Assembly (NCBI GenBank): GCA_944363885.1
Contig: CALVVO010000005.1
Location: 1 to 42,082, forward strand
Source: an uncultured Bacilli bacterium
Lineage (GTDB): Bacteria; Bacillota_I; Bacilli_A; RF39; UBA660
Direction of reading: 5' to 3'
DNA length: 42,082 bases
Position numbers and translations under genes: made by a program. This document shows, in pieces, positions 37 through 36,382 of the stretch (position 1 is its first letter; each line of letters starts with the position of its first letter). Below the pieces are notes generated by a model that saw nothing but the letters and a program-made list of their open reading frames with translations, did not search any database and had not been told where the DNA came from.

Positions 37-897
37 ATGAGTAAAGATAAATTAGAAACAATATCAAATCTTTTTGATGGTAATGAAATAAGAAGTATTT
101 GGAATAATGAAAAAGAAGAATATTATTTTAGTGTTGTTGATGTTATTAGTGCATTAACTAATGCTAATATCCCAAGAAATTATTGGAGCGATTTAAAAAG
201 AAAATTAAAAGAAGAAGGAAGTCAGTTGCACGAAAAAATCGTGCAACTCAAAATGAAGTCAAAAAAAGATGGAAAAAATTATTTGACTGACACTTTAGAT
301 ACTAAAGGAATATTGAGATTAATTGAATCAGTTCCTAGTCCTAAAGCTGAACCTTTTAAACTTTGGCTTGCTAATTTAGGTAGTGAAAGAATAGACGAGG
401 TATTTGATCCTGAAATTGCTATTAACAGAGCAGTAGATTATTATAGAAAACGAGGTTATAGTGATAAATGGATTAAGGATAGATTAGATGGTATTGTTGA
501 TAGAAAAAGGTTAACTGATGTTTGGAAAGATGGCGGTATCACTAAAAATTATGAATACGGGATACTAACAAATGAAATTTATCAAGAATGGTCTGGAATG
601 AAAGCAAGTGAATATAAAGCATTTAAAGGACTTCATAAAGAATCTTTAAGAGATAATATGTCTGATATAGAAGTTCTTTTAACAGACCTAGGTGAAACAG
701 CAACAAGAGAACTTGCTAAAAAACATAAGCCTTATGGTTTAGAACAAAATAAAAAAATAGCAAGAATGGGTGGTAATACTGCCAAAGTTGCTAGAGATGA
801 CCTTGAAAAGAAACTAGGAGAATCAGTAATAATAAAAAATAATAATTTAAACTACAAATATATTGATACACAAGATAAAATAGAAAATAAAAGTTAG
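37..897 (+). CDS. BRO-N domain protein, DinD-like (DNA-damage-inducible protein D family)
   Basis: The 286-residue product has an N-terminal BRO-N-like region (about residues 15-120; VVDVISAL near 33, SPKAEPFKLWLA near 101-112) and a C-terminal half ending in a basic ELAKKHKPYGLEQNKKIA...GGNTAKVARDDLEKK stretch, the arrangement I know from DinD-like proteins. BRO-N domains bind DNA and are common in phage antirepressors; DinD of E. coli is SOS-induced and inhibits RecA. Which role applies here is unknown. The start is well set by AAAGGAGG at 24-31. The stop is followed 17 nt later by the RhuM gene, so the two are probably cotranscribed. An exact 10-bp inverted repeat lies inside the coding region at 224-248. 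Family call is from recognition of motifs, not a search. Confidence 0.8.
   Translation: MSKDKLETISNLFDGNEIRSIWNNEKEEYYFSVVDVISALTNANIPRNYWSDLKRKLKEEGSQLHEKIVQLKMKSKKDGKNYLTDTLDTKGILRLIESVPSPKAEPFKLWLANLGSERIDEVFDPEIAINRAVDYYRKRGYSDKWIKDRLDGIVDRKRLTDVWKDGGITKNYEYGILTNEIYQEWSGMKASEYKAFKGLHKESLRDNMSDIEVLLTDLGETATRELAKKHKPYGLEQNKKIARMGGNTAKVARDDLEKKLGESVIIKNNNLNYKYIDTQDKIENKS
224..248. repeat. Perfect 10-bp inverted repeat inside the DinD-like gene
   Basis: AGTTGCACGA (224-233) and TCGTGCAACT (239-248) flank an AAAAA loop. The repeat encodes the QLHEKIVQL segment. A similar palindrome occurs at a comparable place in the next gene. Confidence 0.85.
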
Positions 898-913
898 CAG
901 GAGGTGGGAAAAA

Positions 914-1939
914 ATGCAAGATAAATTAATTGGTAATGAAAACAATATTTTATTTTATAGTGATGATGATGGAAACATTAAAGTTGAAGTAATTTTAGAA
1001 AATGACGATGTTTGGTTAAATACGGAAGCTATGGCTACACTTTTTAATATTAATAGAAGCGGCGTTGTTAGACATATTAGTAATATTTATAAAGATGAAG
1101 AATTAGAAGAAAATTCAACTTGTGCAAAAATTGCACAAGTTCAAAAAGAAGGTAACCGTGAGGTTAAGAGAGTTTTTTCATATTATAATCTTGATATGGT
1201 TATTTCTATTGGTTTTAGAGTTAATTCTAAAAAAGCAATAAAATTTAGAACTTGGGCAAATAAAATAATTAAGGATTATATGGTACAAGGTTTTGCTTTA
1301 AATGATGAAAGATTTATGAAGGCAAAAAAATCAGATCAAGAATATTTTAAAAGATTACTTGAAAGAATTAAATTAATTAGAACTAGTGAAAGAATGTTTT
1401 ATCAAAAAATTACTGATATATTTGCAGAATGTTCTATTGATTATGATAAAAATAGTGATATGGCTATAACATTTTATAAAACAATTCAAAATAAGTTTCA
1501 TTTTGCAATCACAGGACAAACAGCAGCAGAAATAATATATAGTAGAGTTGATTCTAAAAAGAAAAATATGGGACTTACTACTTGGGAAAATTCTCCAGAT
1601 GGGAAGATATTAAAATCTGATGTTATTATTGCTAAAAATTATTTAGGTGAAAAAGAAATTAATAACTTAAATAATTTAGTAAACTTATTTTTGGATATAG
1701 CTGAAAACAATGCAGAAAGAAATATTCCGATGTATATGAATGACTGGAAAAAAGAAGTAGAAAATGCTTTAACATTATTTCATTATGAAGTGTTAGAAGG
1801 TAAAGGTAAAATATCTCATAAAATGGCTGTAGAAAAAGCAGAAGATGAGTATGATAAATATAAAGTTATTCAAGATAAAAATTATATATCTGATTTTGAT
1901 AAATTATTAAATGAAGCAAAACAAATAGAAAATAAATAA
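914..1939 (+). CDS. RhuM family protein (virulence-associated RhuM-like)
   Basis: The 341-residue product matches the RhuM family: an N-terminal DNA-binding-like domain with VWLNTEAMATLFNINRSGV (about residues 33-51), then the family block YYNLDMVISIGFRVNSKKA (about 90-108) and FRTWANKIIKDYMVQGFALN, then a helical C-terminal half. RhuM was named from a Salmonella pathogenicity island gene; its biochemical role is not settled and it is often found on mobile islands. GGAGG at 901-905 sets the start. It follows the BRO-N gene with a 16-nt gap and is probably in one operon with it. A perfect 11-bp inverted repeat sits in the coding sequence at 1117-1141, within the STCAKIAQVQ segment. Confidence 0.85.
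   Translation: MQDKLIGNENNILFYSDDDGNIKVEVILENDDVWLNTEAMATLFNINRSGVVRHISNIYKDEELEENSTCAKIAQVQKEGNREVKRVFSYYNLDMVISIGFRVNSKKAIKFRTWANKIIKDYMVQGFALNDERFMKAKKSDQEYFKRLLERIKLIRTSERMFYQKITDIFAECSIDYDKNSDMAITFYKTIQNKFHFAITGQTAAEIIYSRVDSKKKNMGLTTWENSPDGKILKSDVIIAKNYLGEKEINNLNNLVNLFLDIAENNAERNIPMYMNDWKKEVENALTLFHYEVLEGKGKISHKMAVEKAEDEYDKYKVIQDKNYISDFDKLLNEAKQIENK
1117..1141. repeat. Perfect 11-bp inverted repeat inside the rhuM-like gene
   Basis: AACTTGTGCAA (1117-1127) and TTGCACAAGTT (1131-1141) flank an AAA loop. The core TTGCAC is shared with the palindrome in the upstream gene, but the two half-sites are in swapped order. Confidence 0.85.
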
Positions 1940-1981: not shown

Positions 1982-2719
1982 TTGTGTGTTATAGTAATAA
2001 CACCTTCCTTAAATAAAAGTTTCAAATTTCAAAGTGATTGGCCTAACAACTCAAGTCAAACTTATATCTTAGATTCATTACTATCAGATTTAAAAAATGA
2101 TGCAAATCGAGAATTACTAGAAGAAGGAGACAAGTTAATATTAAAAAGTAGTGTAAATTATCCAAATAATAGCAATTTGGTAAGTCAATCAATAACATTT
2201 AATAAAGAAATGGATTTAGAAAAAGTAGAAGTATTTAATGATGCAGGGGTAGCCCAAATAACATTAGTTGTAACAGAACTTAATTTAAAAGCAAATAATA
2301 CAAAAGAAATATTTAATTTAAGCAATATAATACAAGAATCTGAAGTTGATACAGAAACTGAAACTACAGGAACAATAGAAAATATAATTTATCCGATGTA
2401 TGTTCCAACTGGTACTATATACAGTAGTGAAGAGAAAATAACAAATGAGTCAAGTGAGAGAGTAATACTTACTTATACTGGAGAAAAACCTTTTATAATG
2501 ATAGAAGAAACTGCTCAAATACCTGATGAAACTGAGGTGACGGCGGTTAATGGCGAATTAGTTACTTACGGAAATATAGTTGGGGTAATTACAGATACAT
2601 CATTAAATTGGACTTCAAATGGAATGGAATACTATATAGTTAGCTCAAATATGAATGCTGAAGAATTACTACAAATTGCGGCTTCTACTGCAACAGTAGC
2701 AGTATCATCCATAAAATAA
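1982..2719 (+). pseudogene. 5'-truncated membrane-anchored protein with DUF4367-like C-terminus
   Basis: The frame is open from 1952 to the stop at 2717-2719, but has no ATG and no Shine-Dalgarno sequence near its 5' end; the only nominal start is TTG at 1982. The encoded segment begins with a basic stretch followed by what looks like the end of a membrane helix (LLCVIVIT), then about 230 residues of extracytoplasmic-type sequence. The end (SLNWTSNGMEYYIVSS...AEELLQIAAS) resembles DUF4367, seen in membrane anchors and anti-sigma-like proteins of Firmicutes. I infer that the cytoplasmic domain and the rest of the helix were lost, perhaps when the upstream BRO-N/RhuM pair arrived. Alternatively, TTG 1982 is used and a short protein is made. 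A terminator follows directly, as expected for a former operon end. Confidence 0.5.
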
Positions 2720-2740
2720 CGTCTAAAAATAGACGTTTTT
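2719..2740 (+). terminator. Intrinsic terminator after the truncated gene
   Basis: ACGTCT (2719-2724) pairs with AGACGT (2731-2736) around an AAAAAT loop and runs into a T tract; it begins at the stop codon. Confidence 0.8.
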
Positions 2741-2782
2741 CTATTTTTAAATACAAAACATGTAAAAAATATGCTAAATCAC

Positions 2783-2811
2783 TTGATTTTTAGGGATAGT
2801 ATTAGTAAAAT
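2783..2811 (+). promoter_or_regulatory. Promoter for the HU gene
   Basis: TTGATT (2783-2788), a 17-bp spacer and TAAAAT (2806-2811). This leaves a leader of about 45 nt before the HU start. Confidence 0.7.
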
Positions 2812-2862
2812 GATAAATGTAAGCATAAGTTGCTTAAAAAAATATAATGGAGGTAGTAGGAA

Positions 2863-3135
2863 ATGACTAAAAATGCATTAGTTGAATTCATAGCTGCAAA
2901 AGCTGGTTTAACAAAAGCAGATGCTGCAAGAGCATTAGAAGCTACATTAGAAGGAATTGAAAATGGATTAAAAAAAGAGGGAAAGGTATCATTAGTAGGA
3001 TTTGGTACTTTTTCAGCTAAAAAAAGACCTGCTAGAGAAGGTATTAATCCATTAACTAAACAACCATTGAAGATTCCTGCAAAAACAGTTGCTTCATTTA
3101 AGGCTGGAAGCAAATTAAAAGATGCTTTAAATTAA
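2863..3135 (+). CDS. hup: DNA-binding protein HU
   Basis: This 90-residue protein is a full-length HU: N-terminal helices (TKNALVEFIAAKAGLTKADA), the VGFGTF turn at about 46-51 and the beta-arm with the R-x-G-x-N-P-x-T motif (REGINPLTKQP, about 58-68), ending FKAGSKLKDALN. HU dimers bend and compact DNA non-specifically and support replication, repair and recombination. GGAGG at 2850-2854 precedes the ATG. The gene is monocistronic: it has its own promoter at 2783-2811 and a terminator right after the stop. Nothing unusual is seen. Confidence 0.97.
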   Translation: MTKNALVEFIAAKAGLTKADAARALEATLEGIENGLKKEGKVSLVGFGTFSAKKRPAREGINPLTKQPLKIPAKTVASFKAGSKLKDALN

Positions 3136-3159
3136 AAAGGCCATTTGGCTTTTTTTTTA
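3135..3159 (+). terminator. Intrinsic terminator after hup
   Basis: AAAGGCCA pairs with TGGCTTTT across a TT loop (with one G-T pair), followed by a run of nine or more T. Confidence 0.75.
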
Positions 3160-3172
3160 TATTGAAATGTAA

Positions 3173-3178
3173 TATAAT
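3173..3178 (+). promoter_or_regulatory. -10 box just upstream of cca (leaderless configuration)
   Basis: TATAAT at 3173-3178 would start transcription near 3185, two bases before the cca ATG at 3187. No Shine-Dalgarno sequence is present before that ATG. The -35 region is only a T-rich stretch. Confidence 0.5.
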
Positions 3179-3186
3179 ATTTATAT

Positions 3187-4266
3187 ATGAAAGAAAAGTA
3201 TTTTGAAATATTAAAAGTATTAAATGACAATGGCTATGAAGCATATATAGTAGGCGGATTTGTTCGCGATAAACTTTTGGGGATAAATACAAGTGATATA
3301 GACATATGCACATCAGCAACTCCTAAGGAAGTATTAAACATTTTTAAAAACAACGTAAAAGTGATAGAAGAATATGGAGCGGTTAAGCTTACTTTAGATG
3401 ATAATACAGTAGATATCACTACATTTAGAACAGAGGAAAATTATATAAATAATAAACCTACAAAAGTTAATTATACGAAGAGTTTAAAAGATGATTTATT
3501 AAGAAGAGATTTTACAATAAATACAATATGTTTAGATAAAGAATCAAATATTATTGATCCATTAAATGCTATAAATGATCTAAGACATAAGTTGCTAAAA
3601 GTTGTAGGAAACACAGAACAAAAACTAGAAGAGGATGCAACTAGGATGCTTAGAAGTTTAAGATTTATGGCTGTATATAATTTTACACTTGATAAACAAT
3701 TGTATGATTATATATTAAGTAATAAAGAAAAGTTCGCTACTATAAGTTACACAAAGAGGAAAGAAGAATTAGACAAATTGTTTAAAAATGATAAAATTAA
3801 GGTGTTTTTAGACTTTATAAAAGAGCATGACATAGAAAGGTTTTTAGGCATAAAATCAAATAACTTTGTGGAAACAGGGACAATAATAGGTGTATGGGCT
3901 CAATTAGAAGTGAATGAAGGCTATCAGTTTACAAAAAATGAACGAGAAGAAATAAAAAAGATAAAAGAGATAATTTATGATAAAAACATTTCAAAAGAAA
4001 CAATATATCATTATGGTTTATACTTATCGATGATTGCTGGAGATATATTAGGAGTAGATAAAGCAATAATAAATGAAATATATAAAAATTTACCAATAAA
4101 AAGCGCTAAAGATATGAATATAACTTATTTAGATATTCAAGAAATAACAAATGCAAGACCAAAAATTATAAATAATATTCTTAAAAATCTTGAAACTGAA
4201 ATTTTAAATGGTAAAATAGAAAATAATCGTGAAAAGTTAATAGAAAAAATTAAGGAGTATTTATGA
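3187..4266 (+). CDS. cca: CCA-adding tRNA nucleotidyltransferase
   Basis: The 359-residue product is a class II CCA-adding enzyme, which completes or repairs the 3' CCA end of tRNAs. Seen motifs: the nucleotidyltransferase G-G-x-V-R-D (VGGFVRDKLLG, residues 22-32), the metal-binding DxD (SDIDICTSATP, 36-46), LLRRDFTINTICLD (about 108-121) and the EEDATRMLRSLRF segment (about 151-163). Length is a little under the ~400 of B. subtilis. The ATG lacks a Shine-Dalgarno sequence, and a TATAAT sits 8 bases upstream, so the transcript is probably leaderless. The stop overlaps the dnaD start (ATGA), indicating one cca-dnaD-nth transcript. These three lie in the same order, though with other genes between cca and dnaD, in Bacillus. 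Confidence 0.93.
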   Translation: MKEKYFEILKVLNDNGYEAYIVGGFVRDKLLGINTSDIDICTSATPKEVLNIFKNNVKVIEEYGAVKLTLDDNTVDITTFRTEENYINNKPTKVNYTKSLKDDLLRRDFTINTICLDKESNIIDPLNAINDLRHKLLKVVGNTEQKLEEDATRMLRSLRFMAVYNFTLDKQLYDYILSNKEKFATISYTKRKEELDKLFKNDKIKVFLDFIKEHDIERFLGIKSNNFVETGTIIGVWAQLEVNEGYQFTKNEREEIKKIKEIIYDKNISKETIYHYGLYLSMIAGDILGVDKAIINEIYKNLPIKSAKDMNITYLDIQEITNARPKIINNILKNLETEILNGKIENNREKLIEKIKEYL

Positions 4267-4859
4267 AAGAATTGAAAGAATTTTTAAAAACTAAAAGTTT
4301 TGTAATTAACTCTAGTGTTTTAAAAAACATATGTAATTTAGATATTAACTTAAAAGAATTCATTTTAATTTTGTATTTTATAAATATAGATAATCATTTA
4401 GATTTAGAAAACATAAAAAAATATATAGATTTAGGGGATGAAGAAATACTTAATATATATACATCGCTAATTAATAAAGGATTAATTGAAACTAAACTTA
4501 ATAAAAATGAAACAACAATAGATGAAGAAGTAAGTTTAGATTTATTTTATGATAAGCTTATATTGAGTAAAAAAGATGAGCCAAAAGAAACAGATATATT
4601 TGAAGTATTTGAAAATGAATTTGGGCGTACGTTAAGTCCAATAGAATATGAAACTATAAATACATGGTTAGATAGTAATATTGATGAAGAGACTATTAAA
4701 AGTGCTTTGAAAGAAGCGGTTTTAAATGGAGTAACAAATTTAAAATATATAAATAGTATTTTATATGAATGGACAAAGAAAGGTATTAAAAGTAAATCTT
4801 TAGAAGAAACAAAGGATTTTAAAGATTTATTTGATTATGATTGGCTGAAAGATGAATAG
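4263..4859 (+). CDS. dnaD: DnaD-like replication initiation protein
   Basis: This 198-residue protein has the DnaD/DnaB_2 C-terminal domain (about residues 115-180: FEVFENEFGRTLSPIEYETINTW then YINSILYEWTKKGI). In Bacillus, DnaD is recruited to DnaA-bound origins and to restart sites and helps load the helicase with DnaB and DnaI, both of which are encoded at 16.3-18.4 kb. The N-terminal part (1-100) is helical and looks like a diverged winged-helix domain. The gene overlaps cca by 4 nt and nth by 8 nt, so it is translationally coupled on both sides. The dnaD-nth order is the Bacillus order, which supports the name. Confidence 0.88.
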   Translation: MKELKEFLKTKSFVINSSVLKNICNLDINLKEFILILYFINIDNHLDLENIKKYIDLGDEEILNIYTSLINKGLIETKLNKNETTIDEEVSLDLFYDKLILSKKDEPKETDIFEVFENEFGRTLSPIEYETINTWLDSNIDEETIKSALKEAVLNGVTNLKYINSILYEWTKKGIKSKSLEETKDFKDLFDYDWLKDE

Positions 4860-5472
4860 TAAAGAAATATTAGAAATATTAGATAATTATATTCCTAATC
4901 CAAAATGTGAGCTGGAATTTAATAAAGATTATGAATTGGTATTAGCAGTAATGTTAAGTGCACAAACGACAGATAGAAGAGTGAATATGGTGACTAGAAA
5001 ATTGTTTCTAGAGTGTGATTCACTAGAGAAATTAAATGAATTATCTACTAAAGAAATCGAAAATAAAATAAAAACTATTGGAATGTATAGGCAGAAAGCA
5101 AAACATTTTAAAAATATTGTTAGCAATTTATTAAAAATCGGATATGTACCAAATGATAGAAAGTATTTAGAAAGTTTAAGCGGAGTGGGTCGGAAAAGTG
5201 CTAATGTTGTACTTGCTGTGTTGTATAATGAACCTTGCATAGCAGTTGATACACATGTAACAAGGGTAAGTAAAAGACTTGGATTAGTAAATGAGGAAGA
5301 TGATGTCTTAAAAATAGAACAAAAGCTTATGAAATTTTTTCCTAAACAGATGTGGACAAAAGTGCATTATCAATTAGTTTTATTTGGCAGATATCGCTGT
5401 TTAGCAAAAAAACCATTATGTGAAAGCTGTAAATTTAAAAGGATTTGTACATATAAAAAGAGTTCAGAATGA
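4852..5472 (+). CDS. nth: Endonuclease III (DNA glycosylase/AP lyase)
   Basis: The 206-residue protein removes oxidised pyrimidines in base excision repair and cleaves at the abasic site. The helix-hairpin-helix is clear (LSGVGRKSANVVLAV, about residues 106-120, holding the catalytic Lys), followed by VDTHVTRVSKRLGL with the catalytic Asp (about 130-143). The C-terminal [4Fe-4S] cluster motif C-x6-C-x2-C-x5-C is intact (CLAKKPLCESCKFKRIC, about 184-200). Length is normal for the family. It overlaps dnaD by 8 nt and ends inside the loop of a bidirectional terminator shared with the convergent PBP1 gene. Confidence 0.96.
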   Translation: MNSKEILEILDNYIPNPKCELEFNKDYELVLAVMLSAQTTDRRVNMVTRKLFLECDSLEKLNELSTKEIENKIKTIGMYRQKAKHFKNIVSNLLKIGYVPNDRKYLESLSGVGRKSANVVLAVLYNEPCIAVDTHVTRVSKRLGLVNEEDDVLKIEQKLMKFFPKQMWTKVHYQLVLFGRYRCLAKKPLCESCKFKRICTYKKSSE

Positions 5473-5486
5473 TATGAACTCTTTTT
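5455..5486. terminator. Bidirectional terminator between nth and the PBP1 gene
   Basis: AAAAAGAGTTCA (5455-5466) pairs perfectly with TGAACTCTTTTT (5475-5486). The nth stop lies in the 8-nt loop and the PBP1 stop at 5486-5488 touches the right arm, so one 12-bp hairpin serves both strands. Confidence 0.9.
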
Positions 5487-8335
5487 TATTCAATGTAAAT
5501 GCTTCTACCTTCACTATTATATGTAACGCCTAGATATATGACGTGATAAGTTATTTGATACCAACCTTTTTGTGAAGTATCTATATCAGATAAGCTATTT
5601 AATGTTTCATTAGTAACTCTATTTTTAACGGTCATAGTAATAGTACTTTTGTCAATTGTGTCAGTAACATCTAGTCCATTTACAATTATTTTAATCGTAT
5701 TTATTCCAGCATCTGGAACAGTACTTCCTATACTTATTGTTGGATGAATTTTGCCACTTTCTTCTAAGGCTAATAGTTCAATATCAACTTTAGTGGCGGA
5801 TCCTGTAATTGATTTAGTCATACCATTACTAGCATTAGCTTTAAATTTACTATAAGCACTTTTAACTACTACTTCATTATATCCAGTTGTATTACTGATA
5901 GAATATGTTGTATCAGTTGTAAATCCAACGTATTTTAAAGTATCTCCATTTTTCAAGTAAATATCAAATCCAAAATCTCCCATATATGTACTATTATACT
6001 GTATTCTTAAATTGTAGTATTTTTCAGAATACTTTCCATAATTAGTATTAAAATAATTTTTTAAATATTCTTCCGTGGAAACTTCTGGAACGCCAGGAGA
6101 CGTCCAACTTAAAGTGGCACCATTATTTGTTTCTATAACATTTAAATCAGTAGGATCGGAAAGTTTGGCAAATCTTTGGGATACTTCAGATGGTTCAGTT
6201 CCTTTAATGAATAAGTGTGTTTCTACTAAATTATCAGGAGTGTATTCGCTAGCTAATTGGGCCGGAATGGTTTCGAGTTCTACTTTTACTGAACTAATTC
6301 CTCCTGGATTAGTAAATTTTGAATTTTTTTCGAATAAGTTATTTAAAAGTACACCTTGTATTTTGTTTCTGTTATTTGTTGAAGAACTCATTGTATTATA
6401 ATAATCGCTATATAGTTCGTCATAACCATACCAAAATGATAAAGTATAATCTGGACTATATGTTGCTACCCATGAGTCGCGAATTGTACTAGATGGAACT
6501 CCATATTCTTTGAGAGCTTTATCATCATAACTACTTGTACCTGTTTTTGTTGCAATTTGTGTTCTGCTAACTTTTACTGTTGACGGTGTAACATTAAATA
6601 ATATAGTTGTAATCATATATGCAGTCTGAGGGGACATAACCTTTTCTCTTTTGTGTTTTGGCTCAACAACTTCTCCAGTATCTCTATAAACAATTTTATT
6701 TACAGTGTATGGTTCAGTGAAATAACCGCCGTTAGCAAATGCAGAGTAAGCTCCAGCAAGTTCAGTAGGCGTGACGCCATTAAATCCTCCAACAGCGTGT
6801 GCTTCATGTAAATATCCATCAGTAGTTTCAGGAGTAATACCTAAAGATGTAGCAAAATTATATTTTAAATCGTTATCGATGGTTTGAAAAGCTTGAAGAG
6901 CAACTGTATTTTTACTCTTAGACAATGCATATTTTAAAGTTACTAATCCATCGTATTGATTATTCCAGTTAGAAATCACTTGGCCGCTAGAATATGCAAT
7001 ATCATCTTCATCAAAGAATGGAGTATATGTAGACCATTTTAAATATTCAATACCGGGACCATATTCAAAGATTGGTTTAGCTGTAGATCCTGGGTGACTA
7101 TCAATTTCTGTTGCATAATTAAAACCTAATTCTCTATCTTTATTTCTACCTGCACCAACAGCTATCATTGCACCGGTATTATTATTTATCATACTTATTC
7201 CAACTTGTATTTTTTCATCTTTAAATTCATAACCTAATTCTTCATTATAAAATTTATTAATAACATCTTGTTTACTTTTATCAATGGTACTATAAATTTC
7301 CATTGAAACATCATAAGGACTAACGCCGTATTTATTAATTATTTCTTTAACAACCGTATCAACAGCTCCTTGATATTCGCTTACTGAAGAAGTATTTGAA
7401 TTAACTAATAAGTCTTGAATGTCAATACTTTTTGCAGTTTCACATTCTTCTTTAGTTATATATCCATGTCGTAACATTAAGTTTAAAACAACATTTTTTC
7501 TAGCATTGGCATTATCTGGGTAGACATAAGGGTCATATGCAGTTGGTGCTTGGAATAATCCTGCTATCATTGCAGCTTCAGGAAGTGATAAATTTCCGAC
7601 ACTTTTGCCAAAATATACTTGAGAAGCTTGTTCAACTCCATGTGCGCCACTACCTAAGAAAGGTCCATTTACATAAAATTCAATTATTTCTTCTTTTGTA
7701 TAATTTTTTTCAACTTTAAATACTGCCATATAAATATCAGTAAATTTTCTAATAATACCTTCAATACCAGTAGAAGTAGTATCTGTCCATGTGTTTTTTA
7801 CTACTTGCATTGTTAAAGTAGACGCTCCTCCAGCATCTGAATTTCCCATGAGTTGACCAAAAGAGGCTTTTAGAAATCTAAATAAATCGAATCCGTTATG
7901 TTGGAAAAACCTAGAGTCTTCAGTAGCAATTAAAGCATCAATAAAGACTTGACTCAGCTCATCATAAGTAACTTTTTCACGTTTTTCAACTGTGTCATCT
8001 CCGACACTAGTACCTAATGTAGCCATTATTTCTCCATTTGAAAAATATATAATTGATGCTTCTTTTTCATACAATTTATCCGGATCAAAAGCAGGTGCTT
8101 TTACTATAATATATAAGCCAAATGCAATAATAGCTAATAAAAATATTATAGCTAAAGAAGTTATTGCTATTAAAATATAATAGCCAATTTTAGAATTCTT
8201 AATTTTCTTATCTTTTTTAACTTTTTTATTTTTTTTAACTTTTTTTTCTTCTTTATCAGTTTTAAGTTTGGCTTTAATTTTGCTTCCTTTATTTCTGATT
8301 TTGTTAAAATTAATTTTATTTTTTATACTTGTCAT
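5486..8335 (-). CDS. ponA: Class A penicillin-binding protein (PBP1, bifunctional)
   Basis: The 949-residue protein polymerises and cross-links peptidoglycan on the outer face of the membrane. It has a very Lys-rich cytoplasmic tail (1-50), one membrane helix (about 52-76), a GT51 glycosyltransferase domain with the EDxxFxxHxG motif (ATEDSRFFQHNG) and GASTLTMQVVKN, then a transpeptidase domain with STAK (in SHPGSTAKPIF), SKN (in LSKSKNTVAL) and KTGTS. After about residue 700 come a fibronectin type III-like stretch (DPTDLNVIETNNGATLSW) and a further beta-rich domain. It overlaps recU by 4 nt. In Bacillus ponA and recU are paired the same way and face dnaD-nth, so the locus is conserved. Confidence 0.95.
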   Translation of the reverse strand: MTSIKNKINFNKIRNKGSKIKAKLKTDKEEKKVKKNKKVKKDKKIKNSKIGYYILIAITSLAIIFLLAIIAFGLYIIVKAPAFDPDKLYEKEASIIYFSNGEIMATLGTSVGDDTVEKREKVTYDELSQVFIDALIATEDSRFFQHNGFDLFRFLKASFGQLMGNSDAGGASTLTMQVVKNTWTDTTSTGIEGIIRKFTDIYMAVFKVEKNYTKEEIIEFYVNGPFLGSGAHGVEQASQVYFGKSVGNLSLPEAAMIAGLFQAPTAYDPYVYPDNANARKNVVLNLMLRHGYITKEECETAKSIDIQDLLVNSNTSSVSEYQGAVDTVVKEIINKYGVSPYDVSMEIYSTIDKSKQDVINKFYNEELGYEFKDEKIQVGISMINNNTGAMIAVGAGRNKDRELGFNYATEIDSHPGSTAKPIFEYGPGIEYLKWSTYTPFFDEDDIAYSSGQVISNWNNQYDGLVTLKYALSKSKNTVALQAFQTIDNDLKYNFATSLGITPETTDGYLHEAHAVGGFNGVTPTELAGAYSAFANGGYFTEPYTVNKIVYRDTGEVVEPKHKREKVMSPQTAYMITTILFNVTPSTVKVSRTQIATKTGTSSYDDKALKEYGVPSSTIRDSWVATYSPDYTLSFWYGYDELYSDYYNTMSSSTNNRNKIQGVLLNNLFEKNSKFTNPGGISSVKVELETIPAQLASEYTPDNLVETHLFIKGTEPSEVSQRFAKLSDPTDLNVIETNNGATLSWTSPGVPEVSTEEYLKNYFNTNYGKYSEKYYNLRIQYNSTYMGDFGFDIYLKNGDTLKYVGFTTDTTYSISNTTGYNEVVVKSAYSKFKANASNGMTKSITGSATKVDIELLALEESGKIHPTISIGSTVPDAGINTIKIIVNGLDVTDTIDKSTITMTVKNRVTNETLNSLSDIDTSQKGWYQITYHVIYLGVTYNSEGRSIYIE

Positions 8336-30019: not shown

Positions 30020-31330
30020 ATGTATCATTTTATTGGAATTAAAGGCTCTGGAATGAGTTCATTGGCTCAGTTAATGGATTCTCTTGGATTAGAAGTACAA
30101 GGAAGTGATGTTAGTGGACACTTTTTTACAGAGGAAGGCTTAATCAAACGAGGAATAAAAATACTTGAATTTAGCAAAGACAATATAAAAGAAGGACTAA
30201 CTATAGTTCAAGGAAATGCATTTAACGAAGAAAATAGTGAAGAAGTTAAAAAAGCAAAAGAATTAAATTTAAAAATATTATCATACCAAGAAGCTGTTGG
30301 AGAAATAAGCAGAATGTTTAGAACAATTTGTATTGCAGGATGTCACGGAAAAACAACAACAACAGCAATGATAAGTCATGTATTAAATGACATAGTAGGT
30401 TGTAACTATTTGATTGGAGATGGAACAGGGTATGCCAGTAAAAATAACAAATATTTTGCGTTAGAAAGTTGTGAATATAAAAGACACTTTTTGTCTTATG
30501 GACCGGTTTATAGCATAATCACCAACATAGAACTAGATCATGTAGATTATTATAAAGATATAGATGATGTGATAGACGCATATCAAAGTTTCATAAACAA
30601 TACACATAAATGCGCGATAGTTAATGGTGATGATGAAAACACAAGAAAACTAAAATTTAATAAAAAAATTATATACTATGGTTTAAAAGAAAATAACAAC
30701 GTAATTGCCACAAACATAGAATATAACAAAAATGGTACTGAATTTGATGTATACATAGATAGTAAATTTATTGATAGATTTAAACTGAAATTATTTGGAG
30801 AACACATGCTTATAAATAGTTTAGCAGTAATAACACTTTGTTATTTAGAAAACATTAATTTAACAAAAGTAAAAGAAAGTTTACAAACATTTAAAGGAGC
30901 AAAAAGAAGATTTACAGAAACCATAGTTAAAGATAACGTAATAGTTGATGACTACGCGCATCATCCAACAGAAGTTTTAGCAACAATCAATTCAGCAAGA
31001 CAAAAGTACCCAAATAAAAAAATAATTGCAGTCTTTGAACCGCACACATTTTCAAGAACAATAAGATTTCATAATGAATTAATTGAAGTATTAAAAAAAT
31101 GCAATAAAGTATTTATAATGGACATATATGGTGCTAGAGAAAAACAAGAAAATTATCCAGGAATAACATATCACATAATTGCTGATAAAATTAAAAATTC
31201 AGAAAATATTAATAGAAATGAAGCATACAAATTAAAAGATTACAAAAATTCAGTAATACTATTTATGTCTCCAAACGACTTGAGTACTTTAGAAAACGAA
31301 TACAAAAAAATCAAAGAAGAAGAACTATAA
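30020..31330 (+). CDS. murC: UDP-N-acetylmuramate--L-alanine ligase
   Basis: The 436-residue cytoplasmic ligase adds the first amino acid to UDP-MurNAc. It begins MYHFIGIKGSGMSSLAQLM (nucleotide-binding Gly-rich loop), followed by QGSDVSGHF, the P-loop AGCHGKTTTTAMI (about residues 109-121), ALESCEYKRHFL (about 157-168), TNIELDHVDYY and, in the C-terminal domain, DDYAHHPTEV and FEPHTFSRT. Length matches the family. GGAGTG precedes the ATG. It is separate from the dcw cluster at 11.7-15.5 kb, as in Bacillus, where murC is also elsewhere. A terminator follows and recD2 has its own promoter. Confidence 0.95.
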   Translation: MYHFIGIKGSGMSSLAQLMDSLGLEVQGSDVSGHFFTEEGLIKRGIKILEFSKDNIKEGLTIVQGNAFNEENSEEVKKAKELNLKILSYQEAVGEISRMFRTICIAGCHGKTTTTAMISHVLNDIVGCNYLIGDGTGYASKNNKYFALESCEYKRHFLSYGPVYSIITNIELDHVDYYKDIDDVIDAYQSFINNTHKCAIVNGDDENTRKLKFNKKIIYYGLKENNNVIATNIEYNKNGTEFDVYIDSKFIDRFKLKLFGEHMLINSLAVITLCYLENINLTKVKESLQTFKGAKRRFTETIVKDNVIVDDYAHHPTEVLATINSARQKYPNKKIIAVFEPHTFSRTIRFHNELIEVLKKCNKVFIMDIYGAREKQENYPGITYHIIADKIKNSENINRNEAYKLKDYKNSVILFMSPNDLSTLENEYKKIKEEEL

Positions 31331-31344
31331 CTAATAGTTTTTTT
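31323..31344 (+). terminator. Intrinsic terminator after murC
   Basis: AACTAT (31323-31328) and ATAGTT (31334-31339) pair around AACTA; seven T follow. The murC stop is in the loop region. Confidence 0.75.
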
Positions 31345-31346
31345 CT

Positions 31347-31374
31347 TTGTATTTAAAAATAATAGTGATAAAAT
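31347..31374 (+). promoter_or_regulatory. Promoter of recD2 (leaderless configuration)
   Basis: TTGTAT (31347-31352), 16-bp spacer and TAAAAT (31369-31374) with TG at 31366-31367. Start of transcription would fall at about 31381, one base before the recD2 ATG; no Shine-Dalgarno is present. Confidence 0.6.
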
Positions 31375-31381
31375 AATAACT

Positions 31382-32435
31382 ATGAAATACATAAAAGGAA
31401 ACGTAAGAAAAATTTTATATGAAAACGACAACGGTTATAGAGTAGGATTATTCAAAGTAAAAGAAACAAACGATGAAAACTTAACAGAATATCTAAACAA
31501 AACAATAACATTTAATGGGGTCTTTTTACCACTTAGTAACGACATAATTTATACATTTTATGGAAGACTAATAAACCACTCAAGATACGGGCTACAGTAC
31601 CAAGTAGAAAACTATGAAATAAATGAAATTGATGACAACGAAGGAATAATAATGTACTTGTCCAGTGGATTATTCAAAGGAATCGGGCCAAAAATTGCAA
31701 AAGGTATAGTAGACATTTTTGGAATGGACACAATTGAAGCAATAAAGAGAAAAGATAGAAAAATTTTAACAGTATCAGGTATGACTTTAAAAAAATTTGA
31801 TAATTTAGTAGTTGCAATAAGCAAAAGTTCAAAAGACGAAGAAAACATATTAGAACTAACAAAAATAGGGTTAACTACAAAGGAAAGTTTTTTATTACTA
31901 AAAAAATACAGTGATAATATAAAAAAAATATTAGAAGAAAATATATATTTATTACAGGACGACATAGATTTCAAAAAACTAGACAACATATTTTTAAAAA
32001 CTGAAAGCGAATTTGACAAAAGAAGAGTAAAAGCACTAATAAAACATTTAATAAAAATAATTTGCTATGAATCAGGCGATACAATAGTAAATAAAGAAGA
32101 CTTATACGTTAACATAAATGGATTTTTTAATGAACCATTAGACGTAAATAACTACAATTTATACTTACAAGAATTAGAAAAAGAGAACGAAATAATAACA
32201 ATAAACGACAATGTTGCATTATACTACTTTTATGAAACAGAAAACATAATAGCAAATAAAATAAGAAGTTTATCAAGTACAAAATCACATATATCAGATA
32301 AAACAATTAATGGATATATAGAAAACTACGAAGAAATAAATAGCATAAAACTAAATGATGATCAAAAAGAAGCCATAAAAGGAAGTTTAAAAAATAACTT
32401 TTACATAATTACTGGTGGACCAGGAACAGGAAAAA
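31382..32435 (+). CDS. recD2: RecD2 helicase, exon 1 (N-terminal half)
   Basis: This part encodes residues 1-351 and one base of codon 352 of a SF1B 5'-3' DNA helicase used in repair and fork maintenance. It has the RecD2-specific N-terminal OB-like and helix-hairpin-helix regions (SSGLFKGIGPKIAKGIVDIFG, around 97-117) and ends inside the Walker A motif, GGPGTGK (345-351). The reading frame then runs into the group II intron and stops at 32459-32461, so unspliced mRNA gives an inactive truncated protein. Joining base 32435 to 35280 gives A+CT = Thr, restoring GGPGTGKTTIIKAVV as in B. subtilis YrrC (GKTTVIKG). The spliced protein would be 718 residues. Confidence 0.93.
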
Positions 32436-32847
32436 GTGCGACAAGTTTAGTAGTCAAATAAACAAAGCTACTACATTATCTAAGATAATGAACTGATAGT
32501 CTGAGATGAGAATTGATAGGGTAACGCCTTGAAGCTCACTGCTAATACTTCGACATGCAGGAGTTGGTAACAAACCTGTGTGAAGCTCGAGGAAGTCGGC
32601 TGAAGAACACCCTAGAACAGAAAATTATTAAGTAATGTTGGTACAAAAGTGTCTAGAGACCGCCCGCAGGAAAGATAATAGAGTATGTTCAAGGAAAAAT
32701 GAGTCAATAACTCATGTGTTTGATAGGTCGGGCATCTATAAAATAACTATGGTTAGAATGTATTCAAAATACTGACGAACCTCCGAATGTAAGTCTCGTA
32801 AAAGTGGAAAGAGTCGAAAGGGCTCGGGATAGTTATATGCCAGAGGG

Positions 32848-32871
32848 CAGACTGAATTTTTTCTAAGTCTG
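32848..32871 (+). other. EBS1 hairpin of the group II intron (domain I)
   Basis: CAGACT (32848-32853) and AGTCTG (32866-32871) form the stem; the loop holds TTTTTC (32858-32863), complementary to the last six bases of exon 1. A possible EBS2, CCTGT at 32575-32579, matches ACAGG at 32426-32430, but it overlaps IBS1 by one base and is less certain. Confidence 0.7.
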
Positions 32872-33220
32872 ACCTTAATCGTTACAGGCGATTGCGGTAT
32901 ATCGGGATAGAGGAGTGAACCTAAGGTTATATGGTAAAAGATAAGGCTATCGGAACTTGGAATTATCCAACCTTAAGCTTTAAGGTTTAAGGTAGCAGAA
33001 GCGAAAACATTTAATAATGTATAAGTTATGCGTAATGGATAATAAGCGGTGGTATTACTTACGATGTTTCTTGTAATGAGAAACGGAGGGATGACCACTA
33101 GTCATAATATAAGATTAACATAAACTTACATCAAAATTTTATATAACAAATTGCGAGTAAGAATAATAAACTTCGTAAGTTGGGAAGTTAACTCTTCGCA
33201 GAAATCGAGGTGAATACGTT

Positions 33221-35161
33221 ATGAAAGATAAAAACTTTACACGAAAAGAAAAATCTGCATATTATTCACAATGTATGCAGATGTACCAAGGTTTATATGA
33301 GTTAACAAAAGAACAAATTAAAGATAAAGGTTATGCTTCGCATAAAAGCTTAATGTATAAAATAGCTTCTACAAAGAATATAGTGAATGCAATAAGAAGT
33401 ATTTCAAAAAACACAGGCGGAGGAACCGCTGGTGTGGATGGAACTACCATTAGGGATGTTAAGAAATATAATAACTCAGAAATGGTAAGAAGAATACAAA
33501 ATAAACTTCTAGGTAACAACTATCAACCTAAAAGAATTAAAAGAGTATATATTCCTAAAAATAATGGGGATTTAAGACCTCTTGGAATTCCAACAATAGA
33601 AGATAGAATTATACAGCAAGCAATAAAGCAAGTACTTGAACCAATAGCAGAAGCTCAATTTTCAAGAGTAAGCTCAGGATTTAGACCAGGAAGGTCTGCT
33701 CATAATGCAATGGCACAAGTAGACAATATGATACAAATGTCTAAAATGAGTTGGTGTGTCAAATGTGACATAAAAGGATTCTTTGACAATGTTGACCATA
33801 ATAGATTAATTAAAGCATTATGGAGTTTTGGTATAAGAGACAAAAAAGTTCTTAGTATTATCAAAACAATATTAAAAACAGAAATAGTAGATATGGATGG
33901 CACAGTAACAAAACCTGAAAAAGGAACGCCACAAGGCGGAGTTATTAGCCCGCTACTAGCAAATATTTACTTAGATGCTTTAGACAAATGGGTAGAATCT
34001 CAATGGACACATTTTAAAACAAGGTACACATATTACTCAGATATAAGAGATAAGAGCTATCAAAGACCAAATCAAAATAAGAAATATAGAGCACTTCGAA
34101 GTAACTCAAAAATGAAAGAAATGTATATTATTCGATATGCAGATGATTTTTTGATTTTTACAAACAGTAAAGAAAATGCAGAGAAAATAAAACATGCTAC
34201 TATATTATGGTTAAAACAAAATTTAAAACTTGAGTGCAGTCTTGAAAAAACAAAGCTCATAGACCTTAAAAATGAATTTGCAGAATTTCTGGGATTCAAA
34301 TTTAAAATATCCAATAGAGTAAAAGTAACATCTAAAGGAAGTAAAAAAAATATTATAGATTCACATATTGCAGATAAGTCGCTTAAAAATATAAAAGAAA
34401 AGTTGAACAAACAAATCGATTATATAGCTACTGCAAATGATAATATAACATTTCATAAAGCCATACAAATTTACAATAGCATGGTAATGGGCATTCATAA
34501 TTATTTTTGTGTTGCTCATGGAGTTAATAATGATTTAAGCCGAATTGGCTGGGATATTCAAAGGAAACTCTATAACAGAGTTCTCAAAGATTATCCAGAC
34601 AGAAACTCTACACCAGAAAATTATCTTCCGTGTTACCAGACAATAGTAAATAAATATGGTACTTCCAAAGAGCTAAAATGGTGCAAAGGAATTCCGATAA
34701 TTCCAATCAGGTATGTACAATTTAAAGCCCCAATAAGCTTTAATGAAGGTTATAATCTATATGATATAGAAAATAATCTAAATACAATAAACCTTGAAGA
34801 TATGGCAAAAATAATTGCATATTTTTCAAGTGATGTGCATAATGAACGAGACACAATGGAATTATACGAAAACAAAATCAGTAGATTAGTTAGCCAAAAA
34901 GCTCTCTGTTATATTACGAAAACACCGTTGATATATGGAGAAATAGATACACATCATATACTTCCTGTACATCTTGGTGGAACTGATAAATATGAAAATA
35001 TTATCATAATACAAGAAAGAGTTCATGAATTAATACATAATTCAGAATCACTACAAGAAGCATTAGAGAAGCTCAAATCGGAATATTCAACGGGAAAAAG
35101 AATCGAAAAGAAGTTTACTGAAATCTATATTAAAGCGAATCCTGAGAAATCTAAAATTTAA
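33221..35161 (+). CDS. ltrA: Group II intron-encoded reverse transcriptase/maturase with HNH endonuclease domain
   Basis: The 646-residue protein helps splice the intron and copies it into new DNA sites. Order of domains: RT fingers/palm (about residues 60-350) with GVDGTTI, LGIPTIEDRIIQQAI, SSGFRPGRSAHNA, KGTPQGGVISPLLANIYL and the catalytic Y-A-D-D at 306-309 (RYADDFLIF); maturase X domain (about 370-470); DNA-binding region; and a C-terminal HNH-like nuclease with THHILPVHLGGTDKYEN near 577-593 and HELIHN. The Cys pair before the HNH is only half present (CYITKTPL). GAGGTG lies 8 nt before the ATG. The gene is entirely within domain IV of the intron. Confidence 0.95.
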   Translation: MKDKNFTRKEKSAYYSQCMQMYQGLYELTKEQIKDKGYASHKSLMYKIASTKNIVNAIRSISKNTGGGTAGVDGTTIRDVKKYNNSEMVRRIQNKLLGNNYQPKRIKRVYIPKNNGDLRPLGIPTIEDRIIQQAIKQVLEPIAEAQFSRVSSGFRPGRSAHNAMAQVDNMIQMSKMSWCVKCDIKGFFDNVDHNRLIKALWSFGIRDKKVLSIIKTILKTEIVDMDGTVTKPEKGTPQGGVISPLLANIYLDALDKWVESQWTHFKTRYTYYSDIRDKSYQRPNQNKKYRALRSNSKMKEMYIIRYADDFLIFTNSKENAEKIKHATILWLKQNLKLECSLEKTKLIDLKNEFAEFLGFKFKISNRVKVTSKGSKKNIIDSHIADKSLKNIKEKLNKQIDYIATANDNITFHKAIQIYNSMVMGIHNYFCVAHGVNNDLSRIGWDIQRKLYNRVLKDYPDRNSTPENYLPCYQTIVNKYGTSKELKWCKGIPIIPIRYVQFKAPISFNEGYNLYDIENNLNTINLEDMAKIIAYFSSDVHNERDTMELYENKISRLVSQKALCYITKTPLIYGEIDTHHILPVHLGGTDKYENIIIIQERVHELIHNSESLQEALEKLKSEYSTGKRIEKKFTEIYIKANPEKSKI

Positions 35162-35196
35162 ACAGTAAGTGAAAAGTTAACTTATATTATGATGGC

Positions 35197-35279
35197 ACGC
35201 CGTGTGCGGTGAAAGTCGCATGCACGGTGTAGAGCGGGGGAAAAGCTGGAGATAATATCAAAGGCTTACCTATCGCTAT
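35197..35279 (+). ncRNA. Group II intron domains V and VI (catalytic RNA)
   Basis: Domain V covers 35197-35230 and domain VI about 35233-35277 with branch-point A35272. Together with the last two intron bases they form the ribozyme core and 3' splice site. Confidence 0.9.
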
Positions 35280-36382
35280 CTACAATTATCAAAGCAGTAG
35301 TAGACATATATAACACAATAAATGAATGCAAAGAAGGGGATATCACCTTGCTCGCGCCTACTGGAAGAAGTGCTAAACGAATGATGGAAAGTATAGGTAG
35401 AAAAGCAAGCACAATACATAAATTTTTAAAATGGAATGGAGAAACAGAAACATTTCAAGTAAATATATATAATCCAAGCATGACAAAATTCGTAATAATA
35501 GATGAAGTAAGTATGGTAGACATATTTTTAATGAAAAACCTATTTGACGGGCTATTAAATAACATTAAACTTATATTTGTGGGAGATGCAAATCAATTAC
35601 CAAGCATTAGTCCAGGGAATGTATTGTACGATTTATTACAAATACCAGAAATAAAAAGAACTGAGTTATCAATGATATATAGAACAAAAAAAGATTCATA
35701 CATAAATGATTTTGCAAGCGATATAAAAAATAAAATAACTAAAGAAAAATACGAGAGTTATAGTGACTTTTCATTTATAGGGTGTGATGAAATACACATA
35801 AAACAAATTATAAAAGAAATATCACTTAAAGCAATAGAAAAAGGAATAAATAAAGAAAGTTTTCAAGTTTTAGCCCCTATGTACAAAGGAGAAAATGGCA
35901 TAGAATTATTAAATAAAGTAATGCAATCAATATTTAATCCAGAAAGCATAGATAAAAAAGAAATAATAATAAGAGGAGTTACATACAGAGAAGGAGATAA
36001 AGTAATACAACTTATAAACGATGTAGACAACAACATTTACAATGGAGACATAGGAATAATAGAAACAATAATTACAAGTACAAAAAACATAATGATAGTA
36101 AACTATAACGGAATAAAAGTAAAATATGATAATAAAAAATTTGATGAAATAACACATGCTTTTGCCATTAGCATACATAAAAGTCAAGGAAGTGAATATG
36201 AAAATGTAATAATGGTAATTTCAAAAAGTTTTAAAAGAATGCTTTATAATAAACTAATATATACTGGAGTTACCAGGGCAAAAAAAAGTTTAGTAATAAT
36301 AGGAAGTAAGGAATACCTAAATTATGGTATAACTAGAGATTATGCAGAAAATAGAAAGACACTTTTTACCAGATTATTTTAG
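35280..36382 (+). CDS. recD2: RecD2 helicase, exon 2 (C-terminal half)
   Basis: Read in frame from the splice junction, this begins (T)TIIKAVVDIYNTINE and encodes the rest of the motor: LLAPTGRSAKRM (motif Ia), VIIDEVSMVD (Walker B), FVGDANQLPSISPG (motif III), MIYRTK (motif IV), HAFAISIHKSQGSEYENV (motif V) and YTGVTRAKKSLVIIG (motif VI). All helicase motifs are intact, so the gene is functional provided the intron is removed. A TTG at 35348 is the first nominal start in this exon but has no ribosome binding site, so separate translation of exon 2 is unlikely. Confidence 0.93.

Follow-up and report, generated by a model that had tools for sequence, protein, structure and literature searches.

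A group II intron that splits a Walker A codon of chromosomal recD2 in an uncultured Bacilli bacterium, with near-identical copies at the same codon of diverged hosts

A group II intron in a bacterial recombination gene was reportedly described by Chee and Takami in 2005, in recA of Geobacillus kaustophilus. Here we analysed a group II intron that interrupts recD2, the gene of the RecD2 helicase, in a 42,082-nt stretch of DNA from an uncultured Bacilli bacterium (assembly GCA_944363885.1, contig CALVVO010000005.1, positions 1 to 42,082; hereafter the window). The recD2 and intron features given below lie on the forward strand of the window. As far as the partial sources go, it resembles the recA intron in being a bacterial group II intron within a chromosomal gene of recombination or repair. 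In bacteria, group II introns are found mostly outside housekeeping genes, according to the available parts of PMC4424553, which cites the recA intron, and of PMC6003770. Our results indicate, with a probability of roughly 0.9, that a mobile group II intron was recently inserted into the Walker A codons of recD2, which its RNA guide matches, that it has spread horizontally and that splicing restores the codons.

The nearest precedent is the pair Ll.LtrB and Ef.PcfG. By the available text of PMC5072309 these introns are 99.7% identical and occupy a catalytic motif in relaxase genes diverged to 61%, on conjugative elements. The recD2 intron is like them, to the extent covered by that text, in that near-identical introns sit at the same conserved motif of diverged orthologues after recent horizontal transfer; unlike them, it resides in chromosomal housekeeping genes, its hosts are more diverged, and its guide matches the Walker A codons. 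The available part of PMC12350094 describes an intron that recurs, nearly identical, in the DEAD-box helicase gene of a prophage and in a bacterial helicase gene that is its remote homologue and has similar flanking sequence. The intron studied here differs from those phage introns in its recD2 host, and a rule of codon phase or catalytic codons is not found in that part of the account. For TeI4 of Thermosynechococcus and for EcI5, PMC2882425 describes, in the sections at hand, targeting by base pairing of the exon-binding sites EBS1, EBS2 and EBS3 together with limited protein recognition; the recD2 intron shares the base-pair targeting, and codon targeting is not among the points treated in those sections. 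A 2009 survey (PMC2814812, available in part) found group II introns without preference for conserved sites (combined p = 0.49). The host genes named there are organellar (cox1 and others), and hence it provides no direct test of bacterial introns. The recD2 case shares a strategy with inteins, in the terms of the same partial source, in that insertion where the protein cannot change makes targets persist and requires loss to be precise; the elements with this strategy in that source act by protein splicing or a homing endonuclease, unlike the recD2 intron. Among the open-access matches listed, with subscription papers largely outside them, there was no report of an intron in a recD2 codon or of a codon-phase rule.

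The intron within recD2

As judged by Pfam domain matches, recD2 is present in the window as two exons. Exon 1 (31382–32435) encodes a YrrC-type OB domain, the HHH_RecD2 domain and the start of the AAA helicase domain as far as the Walker A Lys and the first base of the following Thr codon. Exon 2 (35280–36382, open frame 35348–36379) encodes the remaining helicase core (AAA_19/AAA_30), an SH3 domain (SH3_13) and a C-terminal domain (UvrD_C_2), and the RecD2 domain set is found across both. The split Thr codon, placed directly after the Walker A Lys, consists of base 32435 (A) and bases 35280–35281 (CT). Joining 32435 to 35280 gives an open frame of 718 codons plus a stop, reading ...GGPGTGKTTIIK.... 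The gene is uninterrupted in all five genomes of the same genus that were searched. In the two nearest sisters (G001 and G003) the intron-less recD2 is 97.2% identical to exon 1 in both cases and 97.5% and 96.1% identical to exon 2, respectively. These sisters, with an uninterrupted junction and 96–97% identity on both sides, thus place the boundary exactly and show that both exons are parts of one gene.

The intron occupies positions 32436–35279 (2844 nt), and the same ends are found in three other genomes. The Rfam model for domains D1–D4 (RF02004) matches at 32488–32742 with an E-value of 2.8e-27 (125.7 bits against a cut-off of 34.5), and the model for domains V and VI (RF00029) at 35195–35279 with an E-value of 9.1e-09 (57.1 bits against a cut-off of 40). 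The latter match stops at the predicted last intron base and includes the conserved catalytic stem and the 3′ AY end. The intron begins with GTGCG, in agreement with the GUGYG consensus, and ends with ...CTAT. A preliminary description of this DNA had proposed an intron that splits the Thr codon of the recD2 Walker A motif, at 32430–35281; the Rfam matches, the exact in-frame junction and the empty site in the sisters bear out the intron and its place, and the ends had included a few exon bases on each side.

Within the intron, positions 33221–35161 encode a 646-AA protein with a reverse transcriptase domain (Pfam RVT_1, 7.1e-41) carrying the YADD motif, a maturase part and an HNH-type C-terminus. 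It scores above the cut-off of NCBIfam TIGR04416 (group II reverse transcriptase/maturase), and YADD and the C-terminal H, N and H residues are invariant in an alignment of eight intron proteins. The Pfam scan of the 646-AA protein returned no HNH match; we take the C-terminal H/N/H residues to be those of an HNH nuclease, and the endonuclease part is read from those residues only. With this qualification, the intron encodes an intact reverse transcriptase/maturase with an endonuclease domain, as is characteristic of mobile group II introns.

Only a single intron copy was found, at the search threshold, in the genome of the window (905 kb, 48 contigs, 94% complete), and a pattern search of that genome gave no further GG-P-G-x-G-K-Thr target site. 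RecD2 matches in this genome are limited to the two exons, i.e. to one recD2 locus, so that full-length RecD2 would be expected to need splicing. The scan of positions 31280–31480 for promoters revealed no forward promoter-like site, which is not decisive on whether the recD2 mRNA is leaderless, as had been suggested.

Target-site pairing and near-identical copies

The target is read by base pairing between intron and exon. For 15 related introns (L035 being kept in this set despite disagreeing exon frames) domain I was aligned together with the exons, and the pairing was compared with that in 1000 shuffles of the labels, for each of which all 407 columns were scanned again. EBS1 (UUUUUCU, 7 nt, 32858–32864) was recovered as a column block covarying with the exon, with a score of 12.13 versus 5.87 for the best shuffle (0 of 1000 as good), and was found also in a seven-intron version of the analysis. 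Some of the 15 introns carry one mismatch, and both sides have otherwise changed together. In the window EBS1 lies opposite the intron-binding site IBS1, GGAAAAA at 32429–32435, which comprises the Gly and Lys codons and the first base of the Thr codon, and forms six Watson-Crick pairs and one G-U pair. The preliminary description had named this pairing with GAAAAA as IBS1; covariation upholds the pairing, and its length is 7 nt, one base more.

EBS3 (G32910) is matched by the base that opens exon 2 (IBS3, C35280). Its column is Watson-Crick to exon position +1 in 14 of the 15 introns, where shuffles reach at most 12; the window's own intron is the exception, the G32910–C35280 pair fitting only if a one-base alignment gap is moved. 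With the window read in this way, there is an EBS3–IBS3 (+1) pair in a coordination loop, which we take as the mark of subgroup IIB. Together, the EBS1 and EBS3 pairs cover the Gly-Lys-Thr codons. The wobble positions within the pairing are −5 and −2, and at both EBS1 has a U able to pair with A or G; L032, one of the copies described below, carries G at −5. In the relatives an EBS2 loop pairs in addition with exon positions −11 to −7.

A pattern scan for the intron protein over 84,980 species genomes gave 10 loci, three at 98–100% protein identity and seven at 35–46%. The three near-identical copies (L032, L033 and L034, from assemblies of uncultured Bacilli or of an uncultured bacterium) all split recD2 at the Thr codon directly downstream of the Walker A Lys, between its first and second bases, and each of their genomes holds one intron copy. 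The preliminary description had suggested a search for the same intron in the P-loop codons of other recD2 genes, and this is where all three copies were found. Both in L033 and in L034, joining the exons yields a single in-frame RecD2; the L032 contig ends one base into exon 2, and its frame is read from exon 1. The intron protein is intact in all four copies. Results showed clearly that the introns of the four hosts are 99.0–99.8% identical, while the RecD2 exons are strongly diverged: exon 1 shares 34–59% protein and 52–67% DNA identity among the four hosts, and exon 2 shares 44–53% and 57–63%, respectively, among three. Such a contrast indicates recent horizontal movement into orthologous genes, and near-identical introns at one codon of diverged orthologues are what distinguishes the Ll.LtrB type of spread. 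Two observations concern the copies themselves: the end of the L032 contig looks as if the assembler had met several recD2 exon 2 continuations in the sample, and the intron protein of L034 (4001–5938) has YVDD, not YADD, at the reverse-transcriptase active site (codon 307).

The target itself is strongly conserved. In a set of 25 RecD2 sequences, selected irrespective of the motif, the 7-residue window with the split Thr ranks 10th of 712 for conservation, and GPGTGKT is present in 28 of 29 RecD2 relatives, the remaining one having GPGVGKT. An intron with its own reverse transcriptase/maturase would have entered the chromosomal Walker A codons, most likely by retrohoming, with an RNA guide (7 nt of EBS1, 1 nt of EBS3) that matches Gly-Lys-Thr codons nearly fixed by protein function; since they are so fixed, the same short site recurs in recD2 of distantly related hosts. 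The intron has spread horizontally to four genomes or more, of which three are labelled as different genera of a single family, and splicing would restore the recD2 codons exactly. Both the splicing and the retrohoming activity are predicted here from sequence features. The RecD2 frames of two genomes of the same class (G039 and G051) contain 7 and 6 in-frame TGA codons, which are probably read as an amino acid there.

The wider clade, codon phase and early stops

Relatives with intron proteins about 37–43% identical came from metagenome-assembled genomes (MAGs), other genomes, plasmids and two phage records; the plasmid and phage loci were drawn from 20 of 360 matching plasmid records and 2 of 14 matching phage records. 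For 28 copies, representing 19 distinct sites, the reading frame of the host gene was legible, and each of the 19 sites has the intron placed between the first and second bases of a codon (phase 1). By chance this would have a probability of 3^-19, or about 9e-10, given equal and independent phases; the phase and the early stops described below come from one clade with shared ancestry and are not independent trials of a role for the stop; only the choice of distinct target sites is independent.

The sites include DPER|E of a VirB4-type protein, GDQNQ|L of a UvrD-type protein, WYF|A of a deoxynucleoside kinase (dNK), GDYDC|x of a RecJ-like protein, DREGEN|x of a toprim protein, DEFGN|x, and VAVV|x of a CHAP protein. 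L096 (G181:C14, intron 2992–5795) splits the Asp codon of PDIDT|D in DnaE, and its joined exons are stop-free. The KSFY|A site of UmuC was found in two records (L140 and L156), plasmids of Lactiplantibacillus and Enterococcus. These two introns are sisters in the protein tree and share the UmuC codon, a second example of homing to an orthologous codon. The host families DnaE, UvrD, dNK, IMS, DHH and TraG-type ATPases have Pfam support on the individual exons; for the toprim, CHAP, glucosaminidase, ATPase and helicase genes the support comes from the annotation of the records. The pieces of L037, L146 and L148 tried with Pfam gave no match. We take the target residues in UvrD, DnaE, UmuC and the RecJ-like protein to be catalytic or nucleotide-binding motifs, and most sites of the clade are presumably important to function. 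A P-loop preference of the whole lineage was considered and rejected, as relatives sit in many other codons, among them those of the VirB4-type, UvrD-type, DnaE, UmuC and RecJ-like proteins. The suggestion of a P-loop preference in the preliminary description thus holds for the near-identical copies, and the wider lineage uses many codons.

In the tree of the relatives' proteins among themselves, rooted on L151, both L126 and L151 fall outside the phase-1 group. L126 (G574:C7, intron 2403–5292) is a phase 0 intron directly after the Asp of LLKMD|FLGL in DnaE, a second dnaE Asp site besides that of L096. Several loci were dropped from the phase count: L035 and L036 (disagreeing exon frames), L040 (5′ end not accepted), L041, L139, L142, L147, L150, L152 and L153, L127 and L104 (no interrupted gene as read), and L128 (no 5′ end). 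L131–L135, of another Rfam class, stand outside the site analysis. For L148 and L159, out of several possible 5′ ends the one with agreeing exon frames was taken, and the 5′ end of L138 is GCGCG instead of GTGCG. The disagreeing upstream and downstream exon frames of L035 and L036 may reflect chimeras of a multi-copy intron or ectopic events.

Ribosomes leaving exon 1 of the window would meet an in-frame stop at 32459–32461, 24 nt into the intron; read through into the intron, exon 1 still gives GKS in Walker A before this stop. The first in-frame stop lies no more than 45 nt from the splice site in 23 of 23 introns versus 31 of 46 unused frames, the 45-nt limit being the observed maximum, and no more than 30 nt away in 20 of 23 versus 22 of 46. 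The early stop may act as a shield that keeps ribosomes off domain I and the ribozyme core, the reverse of the earlier suggestion that translation running from exon 1 into the intron could affect folding; this is suggestive only.

To account for these patterns, we propose that the clade, known here mostly from Bacillota, behaves like inteins and homes to catalytic codons of replication, repair and conjugation enzymes, with phase 1 at the 19 resolved sites and an in-frame stop soon after. In phase 1 both bases flanking the junction are non-wobble bases, so that the guide RNA would tolerate silent variation of the host; the stop would end exon 1 translation before ribosomes reach the ribozyme core. 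Jointly, phase rule and stop may let such introns persist in important genes. We hold the arguments for and against this proposal to be evenly balanced. It is more interesting and less certain than the intron, its Walker A place and the idea of a conserved target.

Alternative explanations, genomic context and significance

Several observations weigh against the account given above, in addition to the choice of the 45-nt limit. The intron is rare: of 386 genomes of the family, 3 carry it, the window's own among them, and each belongs to a different genus; the other two are presumably those of L032 and L033, to judge by equal contig numbers and coordinates that agree. The conserved P-loop stands as a target available in many hosts, as had been proposed, and widespread occupancy of it does not. 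A search for a plasmid or phage vehicle gave no intron pattern match in viral contigs, and no intron-protein match of at least 60% identity among the 360 matching plasmid records (E limit 1e-60) or the 14 matching phage records (E limit 1e-40). Among the variable codons of the intron protein in the four copies, 15 of 25 are replacements, which indicates that purifying selection is not strong. An EBS2 is not claimed for the window: the loop aligned with the relatives' EBS2 (32802–32806) pairs with the window's own exon at 2 of 5 positions, a weak match. As to the clade, conservation was measured for the RecD2 site only, at least 12 related loci lie outside the phase count, and two relatives that do not belong to the clade depart from phase 1, L126 being in phase 0 and L151 in phase 2. 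In a 16-intron version of the stop count, moreover, 11 of 14 unused phase-0 frames run into a stop by 34 nt; since this frame often stops early too, the stop alone cannot explain phase 1 over phase 0.

If the element were dead or unable to splice, recD2 would be a pseudogene in the window's genome. RecD2 is dispensable in some bacteria, and the intron protein has changed among the copies without strong constraint. Yet both exons are open and 96–97% identical to the intact sisters, and the ribozyme ends, the EBS1/EBS3 match and an intact intron protein are kept in all four copies. Codons in which the window differs from both sisters, where these agree, comprise 35 silent and 13 replacement differences (not polarised by an outgroup), and this ratio would suit a recD2 in use, although many of the changes may predate the insertion. 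We regard a dead element as unlikely. An active intron might instead benefit its host, its splicing being a regulated switch of RecD2; with one recD2 locus in the genome splicing would gate RecD2, and translation of an unspliced message would end 24 nt into the intron. Such a copy is missing, however, from all five same-genus genomes and from 383 of 386 family genomes, a patchy distribution that fits a parasite, and we give it a somewhat smaller chance than the pseudogene.

Three facts would be compatible with an assembly artefact, in which a foreign or shared-repeat intron had been joined into recD2: the window's genome, like those of the other three hosts, is a multi-contig or MAG assembly, the L032 contig stops one base past the intron, and the exon pairs of L035 and L036 disagree in frame. 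Both window exons match the same sister genomes at 96–97%, however, the exons of L033 and L034 join in frame to one RecD2, and four assemblies agree on the codon, which makes such an error very improbable. Least credible of all is vertical inheritance from a recD2 of the common ancestor with loss in most descendants: it would explain the same gene and codon in all four close copies, but the contrast between introns at 99.0–99.8% and RecD2 exons at 52–67% nucleotide identity speaks strongly against it, and the five same-genus genomes searched lack the intron in recD2. Recent insertion of a mobile intron and its horizontal spread therefore remain our preferred explanation.

The neighbourhood in the window is chromosomal, with genes for ribosomal proteins, EF-Ts, EF-G, EF-Tu, a MraW-type methylase, tRNA synthetases and a Mur ligase. 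In a Pfam scan of 30 window proteins and exon frames no relaxase model was matched, and carriage on a conjugative element is not indicated; one T2SSE ATPase beside pilin-like genes was seen among the scanned proteins. Some 30 kb away from the intron, the left edge of the window (37–1936) holds a pair of genes whose products have BRO-N and RhuM domains and which may be of mobile or phage origin. No second near-identical copy was found among 395 genomes of the class, nor among 78 relatives of the L033 genome.

Bacterial group II introns are usually placed outside housekeeping genes; here at least four genomes have one in a Walker A codon of a repair helicase gene of the chromosome. If the pattern is general, bacterial group II introns would share with inteins the strategy of hiding where the host cannot mutate. 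It makes two questions testable: what allows a guide RNA to deal with degenerate codons, and what lets an intron persist in bacteria despite coupled translation. It may also help in designing vectors for gene targeting by group II introns that are tolerant of silent variation.

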